The position numbers and the translations under genes were made by a program. DNA of 64,000 nucleotides from an uncultured Bacteroidota bacterium (lineage in GTDB: Bacteria > Bacteroidota > Bacteroidia > Chitinophagales > Chitinophagaceae), in the NCBI GenBank assembly GCA_903887415.1, contig CAISPO010000018.1:1-64000 (forward strand), given 5' to 3'. The notes beneath the pieces were generated by a model. The model had not been told where the DNA came from and ran no database searches. It saw nothing but the letters and a program-made list of their open reading frames with translations. Shown here piece after piece: positions 49,011 through 63,032 of this stretch (positions within the stretch are counted from its first letter, which is position 1; the number at the start of each line of letters is the position of its first letter).

Positions 49011-49313
49011 TCAGTACCTGAGTTTGGAAGGATCCTGCCTGTTGTCCCAAAAGTTCAGTAAATGTATTTCTTTCTTTTGTGGTTTGATATGATAAACCAA
49101 AGTGACCTTTTTGTGAATTAAAGTCTGGTGGATTTTATATCTCTTCTTGTGTACTTTCCCTATTTCTGGGTGAACGCTAAGAATATCTAATTTGTTGTGG
49201 ACGCGCTCCACAAAATTCCTGACTTCTCTTTCGGTCCATTCAGTGTTTAGATAGTCAATAATGCCCAGATAAGTGAACTTGGCTTCCGCAGACCATATTA
49301 TTTTGAAAGCCAT
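49011..49313 (-). CDS. RelE/ParE-family toxin
   Basis: The 100-aa protein has the ParE/RelE plan: FKIIWSAEAKFTYLGIIDYL at the N-terminus, a central YKIHQTLIHKKVTLVYHI strand region, and the Bacteroidota-typical end LLNFWDNRQDPSKL. It would act as a ribosome-dependent RNase or gyrase inhibitor; ParE-like features slightly favour the latter. It overlaps the antitoxin gene by 16 bp and is the second gene of the pair. Confidence 0.85.
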   Translation of the reverse strand: MAFKIIWSAEAKFTYLGIIDYLNTEWTEREVRNFVERVHNKLDILSVHPEIGKVHKKRYKIHQTLIHKKVTLVYHIKPQKKEIHLLNFWDNRQDPSKLRY

Positions 49314-49540
49314 TTGCTGTAGAGTTTTACCATCTCCTCATGCGGAATTGTATTGCCTTCTTCCATATCCTTTAGGCCCCGCTCTATCGATGCTTTTTGT
49401 GCATCGCTGATCTCATCCCACCAATCACCCGCCTGGTCTGCTTCCAGCATTGCATGTATTGCCCTTACCATGCGGTCATCAGCATGGTTTATATACTCTT
49501 TTACTTCTTTTCTGATTGTTTTTATGCTTTGCGTTTCCAT
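49298..49540 (-). CDS. Antitoxin of the RelE/ParE pair
   Basis: The 80-aa protein (KTIRKEVKEYINHADDRMV ... WWDEISDAQKASIERGL ... GNTIPHEEMVKLYSKWL) fits the antitoxins found before RelE/ParE toxins in Bacteroidota. It lies first in the pair. Upstream, TTCGTAA occurs twice in tandem (49560-49574 on the minus strand), a possible autoregulatory site. Its C-terminal half resembles the orphan protein at 21648-21947. Confidence 0.82.
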   Translation of the reverse strand: METQSIKTIRKEVKEYINHADDRMVRAIHAMLEADQAGDWWDEISDAQKASIERGLKDMEEGNTIPHEEMVKLYSKWLSK

Positions 49541-49639: not shown

Positions 49640-52600
49640 CTAATTAAGGCTCCTGAAATCCACCGGCACCAGCTTGCTCACACCAGCTTCCTGCATGGTC
49701 ACACCGTAGATCACATCTACAGCAGCCATTGTCTGCTTGTTGTGGGTTACGATGATGAACTGCGAGTTATCCGAGAACTTACGGATCATCTGTGTGAACT
49801 TGCCTACGTTGGCATCATCCAGCGGTGCGTCCACCTCATCCAATATACAGAATGGCGCGGGCTTGATAAGGTATATCGCAAACAGAAACGCAGTAGAGGT
49901 CAGCGTCTTCTCTCCACCCGATAGCTGCGTAAGCGTACTCGGCTTTTTACCCTTTGGCTGTGCATATATTTCTATATTGCTGTCCGCCATATTCTCGGGG
50001 TCAGTCAGGCGCAGGTCGCAATTATCATCTTCGGTAAACAGCGCCTTGAACACCTGCACAAAATTGGTGCGCACCATGTCAAAGGTCTCCCGGAATTTTG
50101 TATTTGCAGTATTCTCCACTTCCTCAATAGTAGATAGCAGCGATTCCTTCGCATTCACCAGGTCATCCCGCTGCTCCACAATAAAGTCATTGCGCACTTT
50201 CATTTCGGTGTATGCCTCTATTGCAGTAGGGTTTACCTCGCCCATGTTTTCCAGGCGCTTCTTCATTTTTTCAGAGTCGGCAGTCAATTCTTCTATGCTT
50301 TGCTCACCTGTTCTCGGCTGGTCCAGTATATCGTCAAGTACCACTTTAAACTCTATCGCAAGCCTTTCGCTCATACCCGCCACCTGCACCTTCATGGTGC
50401 TCAGCTTATCCTTGATGCCATTCAGCAACGCCTCAGCATGTTCCTTTTCACGGCGCTTCTGGTTTAGCTGGCCTTCCTGTGCGGTCACATTATTGCGCAT
50501 AGCATAGTAAGCGCGGTCTTTTTCATTCAGTGCCTTTTCTTCATTTTCCTTGCGGCTCATAAGCTCATACAGCTCATTGTCGCCGGCATGAAGTAGTTTT
50601 TCAGTCTCAGAAAGCTGTCCCGATATTTGCTGTAGTTGTTCACTGTTGGTTGCTATCTGGCGCTTCAGGTCAGCAAGCTGGTTGTTCCTGAACTGCAGTT
50701 CCTGCTTCAGATTTTCCAGTTTGCTGTGCTGGCGGGTATAAGCAATATTCTGCTGGTTATACTGCGCGCTTGCTTCGTTAAATGCCTGCTCTACCGTCCT
50801 GAAATCAGTTTCCGCAGTTTGTATATTTTGTTGCAGTGCTTGTAGCTCCGCAGTTATCTTTTCCAGTTCGGCACGTGTGCCTTTAATATTCTCGTGGTTT
50901 GCATCGAGTTGAGCTTGTATGTCCTGCAGGCGTTTATCTCCATTCTGGTTCAGTTGCTCAAAGTTCTCTACCTTATTGCCAAGGTTCACACTATGGTTCT
51001 GCAGCCGGTTGATCTCTTGCCTTGTCTGCTCTATGGCCTTATCGTTAAGCTCGCTGTTAAATCCGGTTATCAGCGTTTGTGTATCGGCTATATATTGTTT
51101 TAGCTCCCCGGTTGTAGCAGTCAGGTCTTGTATCTCCTTTGCCAGGCGCTCCAGGTTTTTGGCGCGGCCTATCTTATTGCCTTCGAACAAACCAATTGAT
51201 CCACCACCAAGCGTGTATTTGCCGCGTATCATTTTACCATTCCTGCCCACCAGCACATTTCCGTTCTTTAAAGCTACCTGGCTTATGTCCGCGTCATCAT
51301 CCGTAATGTACACATGCCCGAGCAGGTGTTTTGCCAGCTCGGCATATTGATCATCTACAGTTACCACGCTCAGCGCAGGCACGGCACCCTGGGGCGCTTC
51401 AGATTCATTTGCTTTGTAGGCGCCGAGATGGTCAACCAAAAAGAAGTTGGCCTTTCCTTTTTTGTTTTTATCCAGCAGCGATACTGCTTTCGCTGCTTCC
51501 TCGGTATTGGCGACTATATAATAGTTAAGGTAGTTGTCCAGTACATTTTCCAGTGCAGTACGGTATTCATTTTGCACCACAAACACATCAGACAGCAGCG
51601 GGGCGTTATTATCCCACTCCTTATTCTTCTTCAGGAACTTAATACTGTCCGGGTATCCCTCCAGGCTGTCCACCAGCGATTTCAGCAGATCGTGCTCATT
51701 CCTGCGGCTGTCCAGTTTGCGGTTTTCCTCTACCAGCTTCGCGCGCAGGCTCTCCATCTGCTCCTGGCTCTGCAGTATTTTAGACTTTACTTCCTCATGT
51801 TTCGCAATCAGGTTCTTCAGGTCCGTTTGCTTGCCGGCAAGTTGTTCTTCTGTAGTCTTCTTTTCGGTGCTTAGTTGTGTTATCTGTGCTGCGCGCTGCG
51901 TTTTTTCGTCCTGCACCTGTTGCATACTGCGCTGCAGGTTCATTACCGATGTATCTGCAATGGCCACCTTTTTCTCGGCATCAAACTGGCTGCGCTGGCG
52001 CTGCTGGTATTCACCACGCATCTGCTCCAGTACCAGTTTCTTTTCATCAAATGCTTTGCGTTTTTCATCTACCGTTGTGCGCAGCGTTTCCACTTCGGTC
52101 TTTATCTTTTCTAGGACAGCGGTTTCTTCTGCTATCTGCTTTTCAGAAAACGCAATGGACTCTTCCAGTTTTTGCGATTGCCCACCTGCACCGGAAAGGA
52201 AGTCCGTCAGTGTTTTCTCGCGTTCTTTCAAATGCTCCAGCCGCTGTGCTGCCAGTTTTTTATCGCTCTCCAGTTGGCGCAGCCTGTTCACCAGGTCATT
52301 AAATTGTTTTTGCAGCCCGCTCAATTCCTGTTCTTTTTCTATCAGCTGCACCTTCTGCTGCTCTACCGATGCTTCTTCAGTGGCTACGATAGCCTCTAGC
52401 TGCGTCCTGCGATCGGTCTCGGAATCATGTTGCTCGTTCAGTGTTTTGTACTGTTCGTTAAAGTGCTCCAGCGATGCTTTGGCCAGCTCTATGCTCACTT
52501 CTTTATATTCGCCCTTGATGGCGAAGTACCGCTCCGCTTTTTTGGCCTGGCTTTCCAGTGTGCGCAGGTTATTTCCTATTTCAAAAAGAAGGTCCTCGAT

Positions 52601-53170
52601 ACGGGCAATATCCTGTTCAGTGGCCTCCAGCTTTTGCTTGGCTTCTTTTTTGCGCGTCTTATATATGGATATACCAGCGGCCTGCTCCAGCATTCTGCGG
52701 CGGCTGCCGTCCTTGTCCTTAATAATATCATCTACCATGCCCAGCTCTATAATGGCATAGGAATCATTGCTCACCCCCGTATCAAGAAACAGGTTGTGAA
52801 TATCCTTCAGGCGGCAGCTTACATCATTAAGCCGGTATTCGCTTTCGCCGCTTTTATAAAACTTACGGGTAATGGTAACCGTGGTAAACTCAGTAGGCAA
52901 CAGGTTGCGGGTGTTCTCAAATGTAAGTGATACCTCGGCCATGCCCGACGCTGTACGCGTGCGCGATCCGTTAAATATCAGGTCTTCCAGGTTATCAGAG
53001 CGCAGGGACTTGATCTTATGCTCACCTATTACCCAGCGTATCGCATCCACAATGTTCGATTTGCCACAACCATTCGGGCCCACGATACCCGTTATCGGGT
53101 TATCCAGTATTATATGGGTTTTGTCTGCGAAAGACTTGAACCCTTTTATTTCCAACGACTTTAATCTCAA
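49640..53170 (-). CDS. smc: Chromosome segregation protein SMC
   Basis: The 1176-aa protein is a full-length SMC: Walker A GPNGCGKSN (31-39), two long coiled coils, a central hinge at about 510-680 (FLVDHLGAYKANESE, YTLGGGSIGLFEG), then signature LSGGEKTLT and Walker B FCILDEVDAPLDDAN. It forms a DNA-entrapping ring that compacts and separates chromosomes. ScpA/ScpB are not in the window. The start is TTG at 53170; the family N-terminus (MRLKSLEIKGFKSF) begins exactly there and no ATG is in frame upstream. The 98 bp upstream and first five codons are repeated at 54104-54216. Confidence 0.93.
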   Translation of the reverse strand: MRLKSLEIKGFKSFADKTHIILDNPITGIVGPNGCGKSNIVDAIRWVIGEHKIKSLRSDNLEDLIFNGSRTRTASGMAEVSLTFENTRNLLPTEFTTVTITRKFYKSGESEYRLNDVSCRLKDIHNLFLDTGVSNDSYAIIELGMVDDIIKDKDGSRRRMLEQAAGISIYKTRKKEAKQKLEATEQDIARIEDLLFEIGNNLRTLESQAKKAERYFAIKGEYKEVSIELAKASLEHFNEQYKTLNEQHDSETDRRTQLEAIVATEEASVEQQKVQLIEKEQELSGLQKQFNDLVNRLRQLESDKKLAAQRLEHLKEREKTLTDFLSGAGGQSQKLEESIAFSEKQIAEETAVLEKIKTEVETLRTTVDEKRKAFDEKKLVLEQMRGEYQQRQRSQFDAEKKVAIADTSVMNLQRSMQQVQDEKTQRAAQITQLSTEKKTTEEQLAGKQTDLKNLIAKHEEVKSKILQSQEQMESLRAKLVEENRKLDSRRNEHDLLKSLVDSLEGYPDSIKFLKKNKEWDNNAPLLSDVFVVQNEYRTALENVLDNYLNYYIVANTEEAAKAVSLLDKNKKGKANFFLVDHLGAYKANESEAPQGAVPALSVVTVDDQYAELAKHLLGHVYITDDDADISQVALKNGNVLVGRNGKMIRGKYTLGGGSIGLFEGNKIGRAKNLERLAKEIQDLTATTGELKQYIADTQTLITGFNSELNDKAIEQTRQEINRLQNHSVNLGNKVENFEQLNQNGDKRLQDIQAQLDANHENIKGTRAELEKITAELQALQQNIQTAETDFRTVEQAFNEASAQYNQQNIAYTRQHSKLENLKQELQFRNNQLADLKRQIATNSEQLQQISGQLSETEKLLHAGDNELYELMSRKENEEKALNEKDRAYYAMRNNVTAQEGQLNQKRREKEHAEALLNGIKDKLSTMKVQVAGMSERLAIEFKVVLDDILDQPRTGEQSIEELTADSEKMKKRLENMGEVNPTAIEAYTEMKVRNDFIVEQRDDLVNAKESLLSTIEEVENTANTKFRETFDMVRTNFVQVFKALFTEDDNCDLRLTDPENMADSNIEIYAQPKGKKPSTLTQLSGGEKTLTSTAFLFAIYLIKPAPFCILDEVDAPLDDANVGKFTQMIRKFSDNSQFIIVTHNKQTMAAVDVIYGVTMQEAGVSKLVPVDFRSLN

Positions 53171-53268
53171 AGCACAAAAAATTTAGGAGGGAAACAAAAA
53201 TAAACTAAAACTCAAAATTCGCAGCTATTATTCGGGGTTGGTGAATATATAATAATATCGTAAGTAAT
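53156..53268 (-). repeat. Direct repeat of the smc leader, copy 1
   Basis: This 113-bp segment holds 15 nt of smc coding sequence (TTG AGA TTA AAG TCG on the minus strand) and 98 nt upstream. It matches 54104-54216 with 6 mismatches by my count, with no gaps. It includes the TATTTTTG promoter motif. Confidence 0.9.
53195..53202 (-). promoter_or_regulatory. -7 motif TATTTTTG of smc
   Basis: On the minus strand it is an exact TAnnTTTG match, 24 nt before the TTG start. It lies in the duplicated segment. Confidence 0.5.
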
Positions 53269-53281
53269 TCCTGAAAATAGA

Positions 53282-54118
53282 TTACGACGAGTGCGTACTA
53301 ACTGACGTTAATGTCTTTGTTGTTTTTCTAAGCATTAAGATCTCGGATATTATAGCCAACACATACATCAGCATCGGTAATAGGATATATTTTTCATAAA
53401 AGGTTACGGTAACCTGTTCGGGCGAGATCCTTAATTTACAGCGAACAAAATACCAAATTAGGGTGCCTAACAGTGTTATTTCAAAAAGAGTCCTTAAAAA
53501 GTACCTTTCTTTGAATTTCTGTTGAAACCTGCTAACGAGATCACTCAGCGCCATATAACAAACCACTGTAAAAAATGGGATATAAATACTAAAGTCCATT
53601 GTCTTCAAAACAATTTCTGAAAATGCGTAAAGTAGGAGAAATATTAAAAGCTCCGACCATCTATATAAAAGCAATTTTTCAAATTTATTAAATACCCTTT
53701 GGCAAGCTTTATATGATTTTCTAAAGTCTATGATGGATAAGGTTAACGATGATATTGCAACGAATATCTCAATCGGTATAAAAATACTGAGCACGATATG
53801 TTCAATGCATAAAAATAGATTAACAAGCATCAAAAGTACCGCCAGGTAATAAGCTACATTGAATCCATTGCTAATACTAAAACGCTTCTTTGATTTAAAA
53901 AATAATACACTTATGATGTGACAAAAAATTTTATGGACAAATAAAATCATAAAATGTAGTGTAACCATGTCAAAGATATTCTCTAAAAGAGATTCACTAT
54001 AGTGATTGAAGGTGGACCGATATAAGGTGATGGAGTCAAATAAATAACACAATATGATGTAGATTACCTGCGCCGACATGTCAAATAATCTAAACAGGTA
54101 AATCGACTTTAATCTCAA
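53282..54118 (-). CDS. Orphan AT-rich multispan membrane protein starting on a duplicated smc start
   Basis: I do not recognise this 278-aa protein. It has about six or seven hydrophobic helices, few charged loops, and a short basic stretch (KSKKRF, FQQKFKERYFLR). Its base composition is visibly more AT-rich than the surrounding genes, which suggests transfer. Its start codon is TTG and its first five codons are identical to those of smc (MRLKS), because they lie in the direct repeat. An internal ATG at 54079 (MSAQVIYIIL) is an alternative start. It is read in the same direction as smc and probably driven by the copied promoter. Confidence 0.65.
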   Translation of the reverse strand: MRLKSIYLFRLFDMSAQVIYIILCYLFDSITLYRSTFNHYSESLLENIFDMVTLHFMILFVHKIFCHIISVLFFKSKKRFSISNGFNVAYYLAVLLMLVNLFLCIEHIVLSIFIPIEIFVAISSLTLSIIDFRKSYKACQRVFNKFEKLLLYRWSELLIFLLLYAFSEIVLKTMDFSIYIPFFTVVCYMALSDLVSRFQQKFKERYFLRTLFEITLLGTLIWYFVRCKLRISPEQVTVTFYEKYILLPMLMYVLAIISEILMLRKTTKTLTSVSTHSS

Positions 54119-54216
54119 AGCACAAAAAAATTAGGAGGGAAACAAAAATAAACTAAAACTCAAAATTCGCAGCTATTATTCGGGTTTAGCGGATATATAA
54201 TAATATTGTAAGTAAT
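54104..54216 (-). repeat. Direct repeat of the smc leader, copy 2
   Basis: It is the partner of 53156-53268. It provides the promoter motif, leader, TTG start and first five codons of the orphan membrane-protein gene. It ends 46 bp before the divergent S41 peptidase gene. Confidence 0.9.
54143..54150 (-). promoter_or_regulatory. -7 motif TATTTTTG, duplicated copy
   Basis: It is identical to the smc promoter motif and at the same distance from the start of the orphan membrane-protein gene. Confidence 0.5.
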
Positions 54217-54262
54217 CCGTTATCTTTATGAGGTACGAAAATGTTTACCAAACATATAGCTA

Positions 54263-55750
54263 ATGTTTTATAGAATATCCACATTGCTTTTCGCGTTGCT
54301 ATTTTTCAGTATTGTGTTTCCGCAAAAGGGATGGTCGCAATGCAACTGTAAAAGGGAGTTTTTATTCCTGCGGTCATATATGGAAAATAATTACCCCGGA
54401 TTTAAAGATAAAATGCCTGTATATGGAGGCCTTGATTACAAAAAATTTACCCAACAATATGAAACAAAGACTGCCCTTGAGAAAAACAATACCTACTGCA
54501 TGGCACTGATGAAAGAATGGCTAAGATATTTCAAAGATAACCATATACAGATGCCGCGCACACCGGTGAAGGGGAATGACAGCATGGCGCTTATAGAACG
54601 GATAAAAAATGCGGAGCGTATAAACATAACACCCAAGGCTATAAAGAAAATAAAAGAAAACAAAGGCATAGAAGGAGTTTACTACAGAGATGATTCTGTT
54701 TTTAAAGTTGCGGTAATAAAGAGCCCCAATACATGGCGCACTTATGCGGCAGTAGTACTTGAAACAAAAAATAAGAACTGGTCTCCCGGCATGGTGAAAT
54801 TTGAGCTTAAAGAAAAAAATGACAGCTCAAAATATGAAGATAAATGGTTGTTCGATTATCCGAGCATTTTCTATTTCGATGACCACACATTAACTACAAA
54901 CAAGCGGATCAGTTTCAGTGGTTACGGTATGGATGGTGGAATATGGAAGAAAGAAGGATTAAAGGAATCCGCAGATGAGCAGGCCAAAAGAGATAAATGG
55001 AAACAGGAACGAAAGAATAATCCTAAAAAAGATACATGGTCATTCCTGGAATTCAGCAAGCCGGATGAAAATTGCGCCTATATGCGTATCAGCAGCTTTG
55101 ACGGGGACAATGCGCTTAAAATTGACTCTTTTGTAAAAGCGGTTGATACCATTATCAGTCATACGCCTTACCTCATTATTGATATCAGGAATAATGGTGG
55201 CGGGGCCGATCGTTCCTATAATGCGCTGATCCCTTATCTCTATACCCGGCCTATTGTTACTGTTGGGATGTCAATGCTTGCGACTAAAGATAATATTGAA
55301 GCAGAAAAAAAAGCCATTTCCACAATTGAGTCTGAGGAAACAAAAAGCAATTTGCGTAAAGATATAGCGGAGATGCAGGAAAATTTAGGCCATTTTACAC
55401 CATCGGGAAATGATACCATTGTAATGAAATCCATTAAAAAGTATCCTGAAAAAATAGCCATACTGGTCAATGGAAATTGTGCCAGTACCGCCGAGCAGTT
55501 TTTATTAGCAGCGCAGCAAAGCAGTAAAGTGGTGATCATGGGGCAAACTACGGACGGCACCCTCGACTACTCCAATAAACGCCCCAAACCGTTTCCATGC
55601 ATACCCTATACTCTTGAATATCCCATCACCCGGTCGGGCAGGCTGCCACTACATCCTATTGATAACATTGGCATAAAACCCGACGTGTCACTAAATTCAA
55701 CAGATTGGGTGAAAGAATCGATAGAATACCTTAAAAAAGGGGTAAAATAA
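54263..55750 (+). CDS. Secreted S41-family peptidase
   Basis: The 495-aa protein has a signal peptide (LLFALLFFSIVFPQKGWSQ) and a helical N-terminal region. The C-terminal protease domain holds LIIDIRNNGGGADRSY, NGNCASTAEQFLLAA with the nucleophile Ser, and VVIMGQTTDGTLDYS. These are the usual segments of tail-specific (CtpA/tricorn-core) peptidases in Bacteroidota. No PDZ domain is clear between them, and the CtpA Lys position is not obvious. It acts in the periplasm or outer membrane. A TATCTTTA sequence at 54221-54228 may be its promoter. Confidence 0.8.
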   Translation: MFYRISTLLFALLFFSIVFPQKGWSQCNCKREFLFLRSYMENNYPGFKDKMPVYGGLDYKKFTQQYETKTALEKNNTYCMALMKEWLRYFKDNHIQMPRTPVKGNDSMALIERIKNAERINITPKAIKKIKENKGIEGVYYRDDSVFKVAVIKSPNTWRTYAAVVLETKNKNWSPGMVKFELKEKNDSSKYEDKWLFDYPSIFYFDDHTLTTNKRISFSGYGMDGGIWKKEGLKESADEQAKRDKWKQERKNNPKKDTWSFLEFSKPDENCAYMRISSFDGDNALKIDSFVKAVDTIISHTPYLIIDIRNNGGGADRSYNALIPYLYTRPIVTVGMSMLATKDNIEAEKKAISTIESEETKSNLRKDIAEMQENLGHFTPSGNDTIVMKSIKKYPEKIAILVNGNCASTAEQFLLAAQQSSKVVIMGQTTDGTLDYSNKRPKPFPCIPYTLEYPITRSGRLPLHPIDNIGIKPDVSLNSTDWVKESIEYLKKGVK

Positions 55751-61350: not shown

Positions 61351-63032
61351 TAATCCTGGTTCACATCCTTCTTATCCCAGTCCACCTTTTTCCATTTGTC
61401 GCCCACGCTGAATAATAGTAAGTAGCGGTCTGCCGGATGTTTTAATGTAAGGTCATAGAAGTAGCCCACGTTTATCATGTTCACTTTATAGTCTGCGGTC
61501 TCATAGCTCTGTGCGCCATGCCCTTCATACCACCACCAGTTTCCGCCGTGATTGATGAAGACGCGTACCATGCTGTCGTTCAGCACTTTCACATGTGCGC
61601 CATCATAATCGGCTGACATGTTGTAGGACATAACATCATAGATCATGTTCTTTTCAACGGTGTCGGTATATATCTCCCGCATTATTTTAAACATACCTTC
61701 AGGCTGGGCGCCTATCATAGGCGCGCCATTCATGTTCTCTGGTATGTTCAGAAGCAGCACGGTCTTATTTGGATCGTTAGGGAAATTTCGTAGCAGCCTT
61801 GTGTTGATAACATCCGACTCTATCCAGTAAGTATTAACGCCGATCAGAAAATACAGGTTGAGATCGAAATAGACACAAAATAGCGCGATGAGCAGGTACT
61901 TGTTTTTGATCAGCCTGGTGATAAGCAGCACCGCCAGCAGATATAAAAATGGGTCTGCAAAATAAGTGTACCGGTCATAAAAGATCAGCAAGGCAGGGCC
62001 GGGGAAGGACAATGGCATCACAAAACAAATGGTAACAATAGAAAAAGCAAAGAACAGGAACATTGCTTTGCCCTCACTGCTGATCTTTCTGAATCGTATA
62101 ATGGTATAGCCAAATACAAAGGCTAGTAAAGTATAAACTGCAATGAGCGCCCATACCGACTCAAAAAAAGAATAGGCGGCTTTCTTTGTTTCAAAAGAAA
62201 AATAGCGCCCGAGCAGCAGAATATGAAAAAGGTATTTCGGCAGCTTCGACAGATAGTCCGTCAGTGCCTGGTTTATTTCAATTTTGTGCGGGTGAAGCTG
62301 TTTATAGGTTGCCTTAAGCGCGATAAAATAAATGCATAACAGAATGACTTGCGGTATAAAGAAATACAAAACAGTTCGCCGGAAAACAGCCTTGTCATAA
62401 TTAAGCGCATAGCGGTAATACAGCGCAATAAACAGCACAAACACTGGCACGAGATAAAATATCTCCAGCGTCAGCGAAGCCATTACAAACAGCAGGACGG
62501 CCCCCCATATATACTTGCTACGCTGTGTACGCTGGTATTGCTGCACCCACAGCATGATCAGCAGAATGAACAGGAAACACTGGAGGTAATGATAGTATGC
62601 TTTGCACACAATGATCTCGGATATATGTGGCGATACGGTGAAGATCACCACACTGCAAAACGCTATAAGACGGGCATTCTTAACGGTTGAATCTTCAAGA
62701 ATACGGGCGCCAAAAATAAAGAACAGCAATGCGTTTATTGCTTGCAGAGTAATATACAGCACCGTCCACAAACACGGATTTATTCCCCACAGCTTGTAGA
62801 ACACAACATAATGCAGTGTGAATAATTGATAAAAGCTCTGATCGGTGGATGTGGTGCGGTTTATAAAATCCCAGAATCCCTGGTGCTTCAGATGATATAA
62901 AAAACCTGCCCCATCAATCACCCAGCCCGTTTTGCCTGCCGGTATGTATAACACAAACGTAAGCAGCCACAGCAGGATGAATACCCACATGTTCCTATTA
63001 CCGGGAAGCCTTGCTATCAGACTATTGATCAT
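61350..63032 (-). CDS. GT-C-like multispan membrane protein, tandem copy A
   Basis: The 560-aa protein has about ten membrane helices to near residue 400. The early loop reads GKTGWVIDGAGFLYHLKHQG and TSTDQSFYQLFTLHYVVF, which fits the GT-C fold. A soluble C-terminal domain ends in DRYLLLFSVGDKWKKVDW. There is no TPR, unlike the TMTC-like pair. It is likely an inner-membrane glycosyltransferase or related envelope enzyme, with donor and acceptor unknown. Its homologue ends 13 bp upstream at 63045, so the two are a tandem duplication. Confidence 0.65.
   Translation of the reverse strand: MINSLIARLPGNRNMWVFILLWLLTFVLYIPAGKTGWVIDGAGFLYHLKHQGFWDFINRTTSTDQSFYQLFTLHYVVFYKLWGINPCLWTVLYITLQAINALLFFIFGARILEDSTVKNARLIAFCSVVIFTVSPHISEIIVCKAYYHYLQCFLFILLIMLWVQQYQRTQRSKYIWGAVLLFVMASLTLEIFYLVPVFVLFIALYYRYALNYDKAVFRRTVLYFFIPQVILLCIYFIALKATYKQLHPHKIEINQALTDYLSKLPKYLFHILLLGRYFSFETKKAAYSFFESVWALIAVYTLLAFVFGYTIIRFRKISSEGKAMFLFFAFSIVTICFVMPLSFPGPALLIFYDRYTYFADPFLYLLAVLLITRLIKNKYLLIALFCVYFDLNLYFLIGVNTYWIESDVINTRLLRNFPNDPNKTVLLLNIPENMNGAPMIGAQPEGMFKIMREIYTDTVEKNMIYDVMSYNMSADYDGAHVKVLNDSMVRVFINHGGNWWWYEGHGAQSYETADYKVNMINVGYFYDLTLKHPADRYLLLFSVGDKWKKVDWDKKDVNQD

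Follow-up and report, generated by a model that had tools for sequence, protein, structure and literature searches.

How does a gene for a membrane protein of no recognised family come to lie behind a second copy of the smc leader, sharing with smc the start codon and the first five codons? We addressed this question in a stretch of 64,000 nucleotides from an uncultured member of the Chitinophagaceae (the window; positions 1 to 64,000 of contig CAISPO010000018.1, assembly GCA_903887415.1). The 113-bp direct repeat described in an earlier note on this DNA was reproduced in all respects by a repeat search and an alignment, i.e. it lies at 53156-53268 and 54104-54216, is ungapped with six mismatches (95% identity; spacing 948 bp), and contains the smc leader. 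Read on the minus strand, the repeat extends from position -98 of smc to the end of codon 5. Counted from the TTG, the mismatches are at -89, -74, -72, -70, -67 and -12; four of the six fall inside 8 bp, the longest exact run is 54 bp, and from -66 through codon 5 the copies match except for the single base at -12. The gene order is leader-orphan-leader-smc, with copy 1 leading into smc and copy 2 into the orphan ORF:

49640 to 53170, minus strand: smc, 1176 amino acids, TTG start in copy 1, protein beginning MRLKSLEIKGF (ORF list; Pfam SMC_N and SMC_hinge)
53156 to 53268, minus strand: smc leader copy 1, from -98 to codon 5 of smc (repeat search, alignment; similar leader in the congeners G001, G048, G043 and G012)
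53269 to 54103, minus strand: unique stretch of 835 bp between the copies, holding orphan codons 6-278, the stop codon and 13 bp (alignment)
53282 to 54118, minus strand: orphan ORF, 278 amino acids, TTG in copy 2 (alternative ATG at codon 14), beginning MRLKSIYLF, 32% GC, multispan by hydropathy (ORF list, hydropathy)
54104 to 54216, minus strand: smc leader copy 2, from -98 to codon 5, ahead of the orphan ORF (repeat search, leader search, alignment)

We surveyed 402,466 bases of this genome, i.e. the window and 20 further stretches, each compared only with itself, for direct repeats of at least 60 bp with at least 80% identity and less than 6 kb apart. Only three other pairs passed: two were short tandem repeats with spacings of 73 and 88, and the third was 68 bp long (87% identity, 4,270 bp apart). 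No pair in these bases was comparable to the 113-bp repeat, and it is indeed hard to attribute to chance, as had been claimed. A 72% repeat at 61489/63178 was set aside because it sits within two similar membrane-protein ORFs. In a leader search, the smc leader occurred in its own genome at these two places only; in the 34 other congeners, any match at all was obtained in 24, and second matches there were just 18-29 bp long. Thus, in this comparison with congeners of other species, only this one of the 35 genomes searched showed two smc leaders, and the upstream flanks differ.

An assembly or binning fault, i.e. a chimeric contig in which two strains were joined in the leader, could give the same picture. 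The 54-bp exact run would offer a place for such a join, and the leader-bearing congeners G001, G004 and G048 are themselves apparently metagenome-assembled. However, the copies are separated by six differences, making a fault unlikely, and the orphan side has copy 2's own base at -12 together with five smc codons, so that a wrong join higher up would leave the fusion intact. Moreover, the contig is 251,745 bp long and the genome is 99.3% complete and 0.6% contaminated. We consider a fault of this kind very unlikely.

In 34 other genomes of the genus, 29 further smc loci were found, of which 22 start with TTG and seven with GTG; in all 29, the start codon is followed by one residue and then LKSLEIKGF. 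The smc start is well founded because the loci of the relatives agree. The orphan ORF opens in frame from the same TTG, as had been pointed out for both proteins. The shared TTG is nevertheless weaker evidence than it might seem, as the phase would be kept by chance in about one case in three by our own estimate, and an in-frame ATG is present at codon 14. From the sequence, it is uncertain that translation of the orphan ORF starts at the TTG of copy 2.

What the repeat consists of became clear from the congeners. The motif TAnnTTTG is the -7 box of Bacteroidetes promoters. All 30 smc loci examined in the genus, this genome included, have such a box somewhere from -45 to -18, and its core is the same in both copies of the repeat. 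In addition, an AT-rich block lies at the upper end of the leader in both:

53195 to 53202, minus strand: TATTTTTG, copy 1, which fits TAnnTTTG (found in 30 of 30 smc loci)
54143 to 54150, minus strand: TATTTTTG, copy 2, which fits TAnnTTTG (identical sequence in the repeat)
53243 to 53268, minus strand: upper AT-rich leader block, copy 1 (ATTACTTACGATATTATTATATATTC; alignment; similar block at the same place in G001, G048, G043 and G012)
54191 to 54216, minus strand: upper AT-rich leader block, copy 2 (alignment)

In G001, G048, G043 and G012, similarity to the leader continues to about -97, including the AT-rich block from about -98 to -73, and none is visible beyond. The upper end of the repeat coincides with this limit within 1-2 bp, as judged by eye in the alignment. 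In G004, the leader is present on a contig that starts at -64; in G020, which by fourfold sites of smc is the nearest of six congeners compared (27 of 85 sites different), the leader matches only from about -40 and a ParE-like gene lies above. The sequence above the leader differs in each leader-bearing congener where it is readable, and the nearest ORFs upstream of smc are mostly unlike one another across 28 congener loci, a few pairs being alike (by eye, unclustered). Since the leader shared between species ends at about -98 with different sequence above it, the repeat is, as far as these species show, the conserved control region of smc and not arbitrary DNA. The AT-rich block, common to five species, is possibly a regulator site.

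The stretch directly ahead of the smc start codon (53171-53195) holds CCCTCCTAAATTTTTT, the first part of which is a Shine-Dalgarno complement, and CCNCC, CCCTC or CCTCA occurs in the smc 5' leader in 26 of 30 loci. A search with Rfam over 53000-54400 gave no matches. Similarly, a sigma-70 scan, a model ill-suited to this phylum, found five sites against 6.1 expected and thus no excess. In G001 (L005/L056), the ORF adjoining the smc leader resembles a REP-associated (Y1-type) transposase and has no Pfam match.

The unique insert is open over all 273 orphan codons, and none of 1000 dinucleotide shuffles equalled it (longest 164); the orphan ORF is very probably a gene. A simple hydropathy scan, read by eye, gave seven or eight membrane-spanning stretches. 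The ORF has 32% GC compared with 47% for the window, and of the 162 ORFs with an ATG start and 250 amino acids or more (six frames, 20 other stretches of this genome), six have a GC content as low as this. The insert consists of a single ORF without a family. It contains no transposase or integrase gene and no terminal inverted repeats, and near its ends we found just a 7-bp inverted and an 8-bp direct match.

Searches of the protein against Pfam and PADLOC (both at E up to 1) and PHROGs (E up to 5) returned no families, and PDB sequences no relatives; NCBIfam gave two matches with E values of 2.5 and 2.8, far under the cutoff. Thus, the earlier description as a multispan membrane protein of no recognised family holds, while the suggestion of a role in defence or immunity, or of a selfish element, found no support in Pfam, PADLOC, PHROGs or NCBIfam. 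Plasmid and phage records held no relative, and pattern scans of species-representative genome contigs and viral contigs, which reach close relatives only, confirmed none.

In a sample of the order, 25 of 395 other genomes matched the orphan with E values of 0.0036-0.098 and 13-18 bits; 17 of the 26 rows cross stop codons, and we took these matches as chance. In a sample of the phylum, which overlaps that of the order, one of 394 other genomes matched (E 3.7e-4), and this match, overlapping a 429-aa multispan ORF that is presumably flippase-like, was ascribed to shared hydrophobicity. Within the genus, matches in two of the 34 other genomes (E 0.003) were rejected after inspection, each lying on the strand opposite a likelier ORF. 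The 835-bp insert as DNA gave just 28-41 bp matches, in five of the 34 (for most genomes, only 14 first-look candidates were scored). Altogether, as far as these collections go, the orphan appears to be without believable relatives, and it was found in none of the 34 other congeners, several of which are incomplete. The proposed capture thus also survives comparison with relatives.

In this locus, the smc promoter segment is duplicated ahead of an unrelated gene, and by its sequence this is likely a natural case of capture of the smc promoter by an orphan gene. Whatever the route, codon 5 of smc and the body of the orphan must have been joined illegitimately once. Our best reading, which we hold tentatively, is that promoter and start were captured by such a join followed by a crossover in the leader. 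The orphan body would have been joined illegitimately behind codon 5 of the smc leader of a congener, and the joined piece would have entered the chromosome via one crossover between the incoming and the resident leader. The product would be P(smc)-orphan-P(smc)-smc with a foreign-looking orphan gene. Homology, and hence the repeat, would stop at -98 because the leader is common to the species up to about this point and no further; import by leader crossover would thus explain both the end of the repeat near -98 and the differences between the copies, which are of the size seen between species. By Campbell-type integration, a single crossover yields the order leader-gene-leader-target with a repeat as long as the shared homology. 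The layout here is alike, whereas no circle, plasmid or donor was found: none of the 34 other congeners and no plasmid, phage or viral record provided a donor or circle for the orphan gene, and the smc leader was absent from plasmid and phage records and, as exact patterns, from viral contigs.

In-place tandem duplication is about as likely as import and, taken by itself, is likewise no better than a tentative explanation. Here, the orphan would first have lain upstream of smc. An illegitimate duplication with one end within the orphan and the other at codon 5 of smc would have fused it to the smc leader, and the upstream copy of the orphan would later have been lost in turnover above -98. A single event would yield both repeat and join, so that fewer steps are taken than by import; the variation upstream of smc among the 28 congener loci is in keeping with such turnover; and promoter capture through homology-independent tandem duplication has been described in E. 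coli experiments (PMC11111574). By contrast, no orphan remnant is present upstream of copy 2, the duplication needs time as well as loss of the upstream orphan copy, and the six differences, being at the between-species level, imply that the event is old or that change was fast, whereas the gene was found in none of the 34 other congeners. The integration of a circle or fragment with leader homology, or recombination during transfer, as advanced in the earlier note, therefore stands in that it fits the layout, the repeat edge and the divergence, but not as the only account, because tandem duplication fits about equally.

The divergence of the copies bears on both routes. Of the 113 sites, six differ between the two copies, five between copy 1 and G001, and six between copy 2 and G001, counts that are small and in this respect speak against import. 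For comparison, 31 of 84 fourfold sites (37%) in the first 200 codons of smc differ between this genome and G001, which is a single and imperfect yardstick (96% complete, 6% contaminated, smc start on a 3.1-kb contig). A very fresh duplication is unlikely because fresh duplicates are identical, yet the copies differ about as much as the leaders of different species; copy 2 would have come from another species, or else be old or quick to change. The site patterns are almost star-like: the copies agree against G001 at two sites, copy 1 agrees with G001 at three and copy 2 with G001 at two, while at one site all three have different bases. These patterns would also fit a duplication that postdates the split from G001. 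Private bases were found in copy 1 at -74 and in copy 2 at -67 and -12, while the copy 1 base at -89 is shared only with G012; these tiny numbers give no sign of faster change in copy 2 than in copy 1. That the second copy came from a related but different allele, as had been suggested, is compatible with a divergence between the copies equal to that of leaders between species; this divergence does not prove such an origin. We also considered reading constraint on copy 2 from the placing of the six differences, five of which lie in -98 to -67 (P 0.008, with the cut chosen after seeing the data). This argument was weakened, as a cut derived from G001 gives three of six and P 0.17 and the copy 1 base at -89 occurs in G012. 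For this reason, import lost a little weight to tandem duplication and to target duplication.

We further considered insertion with long target duplication, in which the gene would have arrived whole, its entry duplicating 113 bp of the target. Such insertions have been linked to restriction-modification genes in Helicobacter (Nobusato et al. 2000, cited in PMC1643837 and PMC3031569), and the layout described in these two sources is the one seen here, with a copy of a long, directly repeated piece of target DNA on either side of a gene. However, the orphan has no restriction-modification or defence match, the upper limit of the repeat lies at the edge of leader conservation and not at a random place, and the copies have diverged about as species do (6 of 113, approximately the distance to G001). 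We regard this explanation as quite unlikely.

Under the capture reading, activity of the smc promoter would always yield the orphan product as well, with the smc-like timing suggested earlier; transcription of the orphan should be much like that of smc because the two leaders share every base from -66 to codon 5 except that at -12. Read-through from the orphan into smc would be probable, since only 13 bp separate the orphan stop codon from copy 1 and no terminator-like site was found (just 0.6 would be expected by chance). The short gap and the lack of a terminator-like site, together with the lack of relatives of the orphan, would also agree with a further possibility, compatible with the other routes, that the extra smc promoter is what is kept and the ORF is a passenger. 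We judge this unlikely: the frame of 278 codons is intact, and long direct repeats generally tend to recombine and thereby delete what lies between them. A 113-bp repeat with a 54-bp exact run should be deletion-prone, yet the orphan remains, which suggests either recent arrival or benefit.

The open-access literature searched yielded no report of a captured smc leader. According to PMC11111574, which cites Li and Bock (2019) and the E. coli citrate case, transferred genes have captured promoters by tandem duplication; as here, a rearranged or duplicated segment provides a resident promoter to a gene that was silent or foreign. In contrast to the cases covered there, the start codon and five codons are included here, the copies are 5% diverged, and there is no second copy of the captured gene. 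Gene fusions can also arise from deletions, as noted in PMC12803068.

With its clear limits, the locus illustrates from nature how a ready-made promoter and translation start may be acquired by an orphan gene beside a core gene that keeps its own leader. Because the repeat stops where conservation of the leader stops, the route is testable, and this match also outlines the smc control region of the genus. A broader idea, which we consider highly unlikely, is that the smc leader is a recurrent docking site, at which single foreign genes arrive fused to the smc control region of a congener, cross over at the leader, and can be swapped or lost in the same way. If true, newcomers would integrate without disturbing an essential gene, and their expression would be tied to that of smc from the outset. 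Should the same arrangement turn up at this site in other species, new genes would have docking points in the leaders of essential genes.

The surroundings of smc offer two further observations. An S41-family peptidase gene (54263-55750) lies divergent from the orphan, and in a search without positive control it had a DNA match in none of eight congeners tested; this neighbour may also be a newcomer. Directly downstream of smc, the window has a ParE toxin and a partner ORF (49011-49540), and ParE-like toxin genes or a partner lie directly upstream of smc in several congeners (L004, L009, L017, L025, L028 and L031). Among these, L004 and L031 matched Pfam ParE_toxin, L025 was below the cutoff, and L009 and L028 had no Pfam match; L017 has a partner-like ORF only, L009 is 54% like L004, and L028 resembles L031 by eye.
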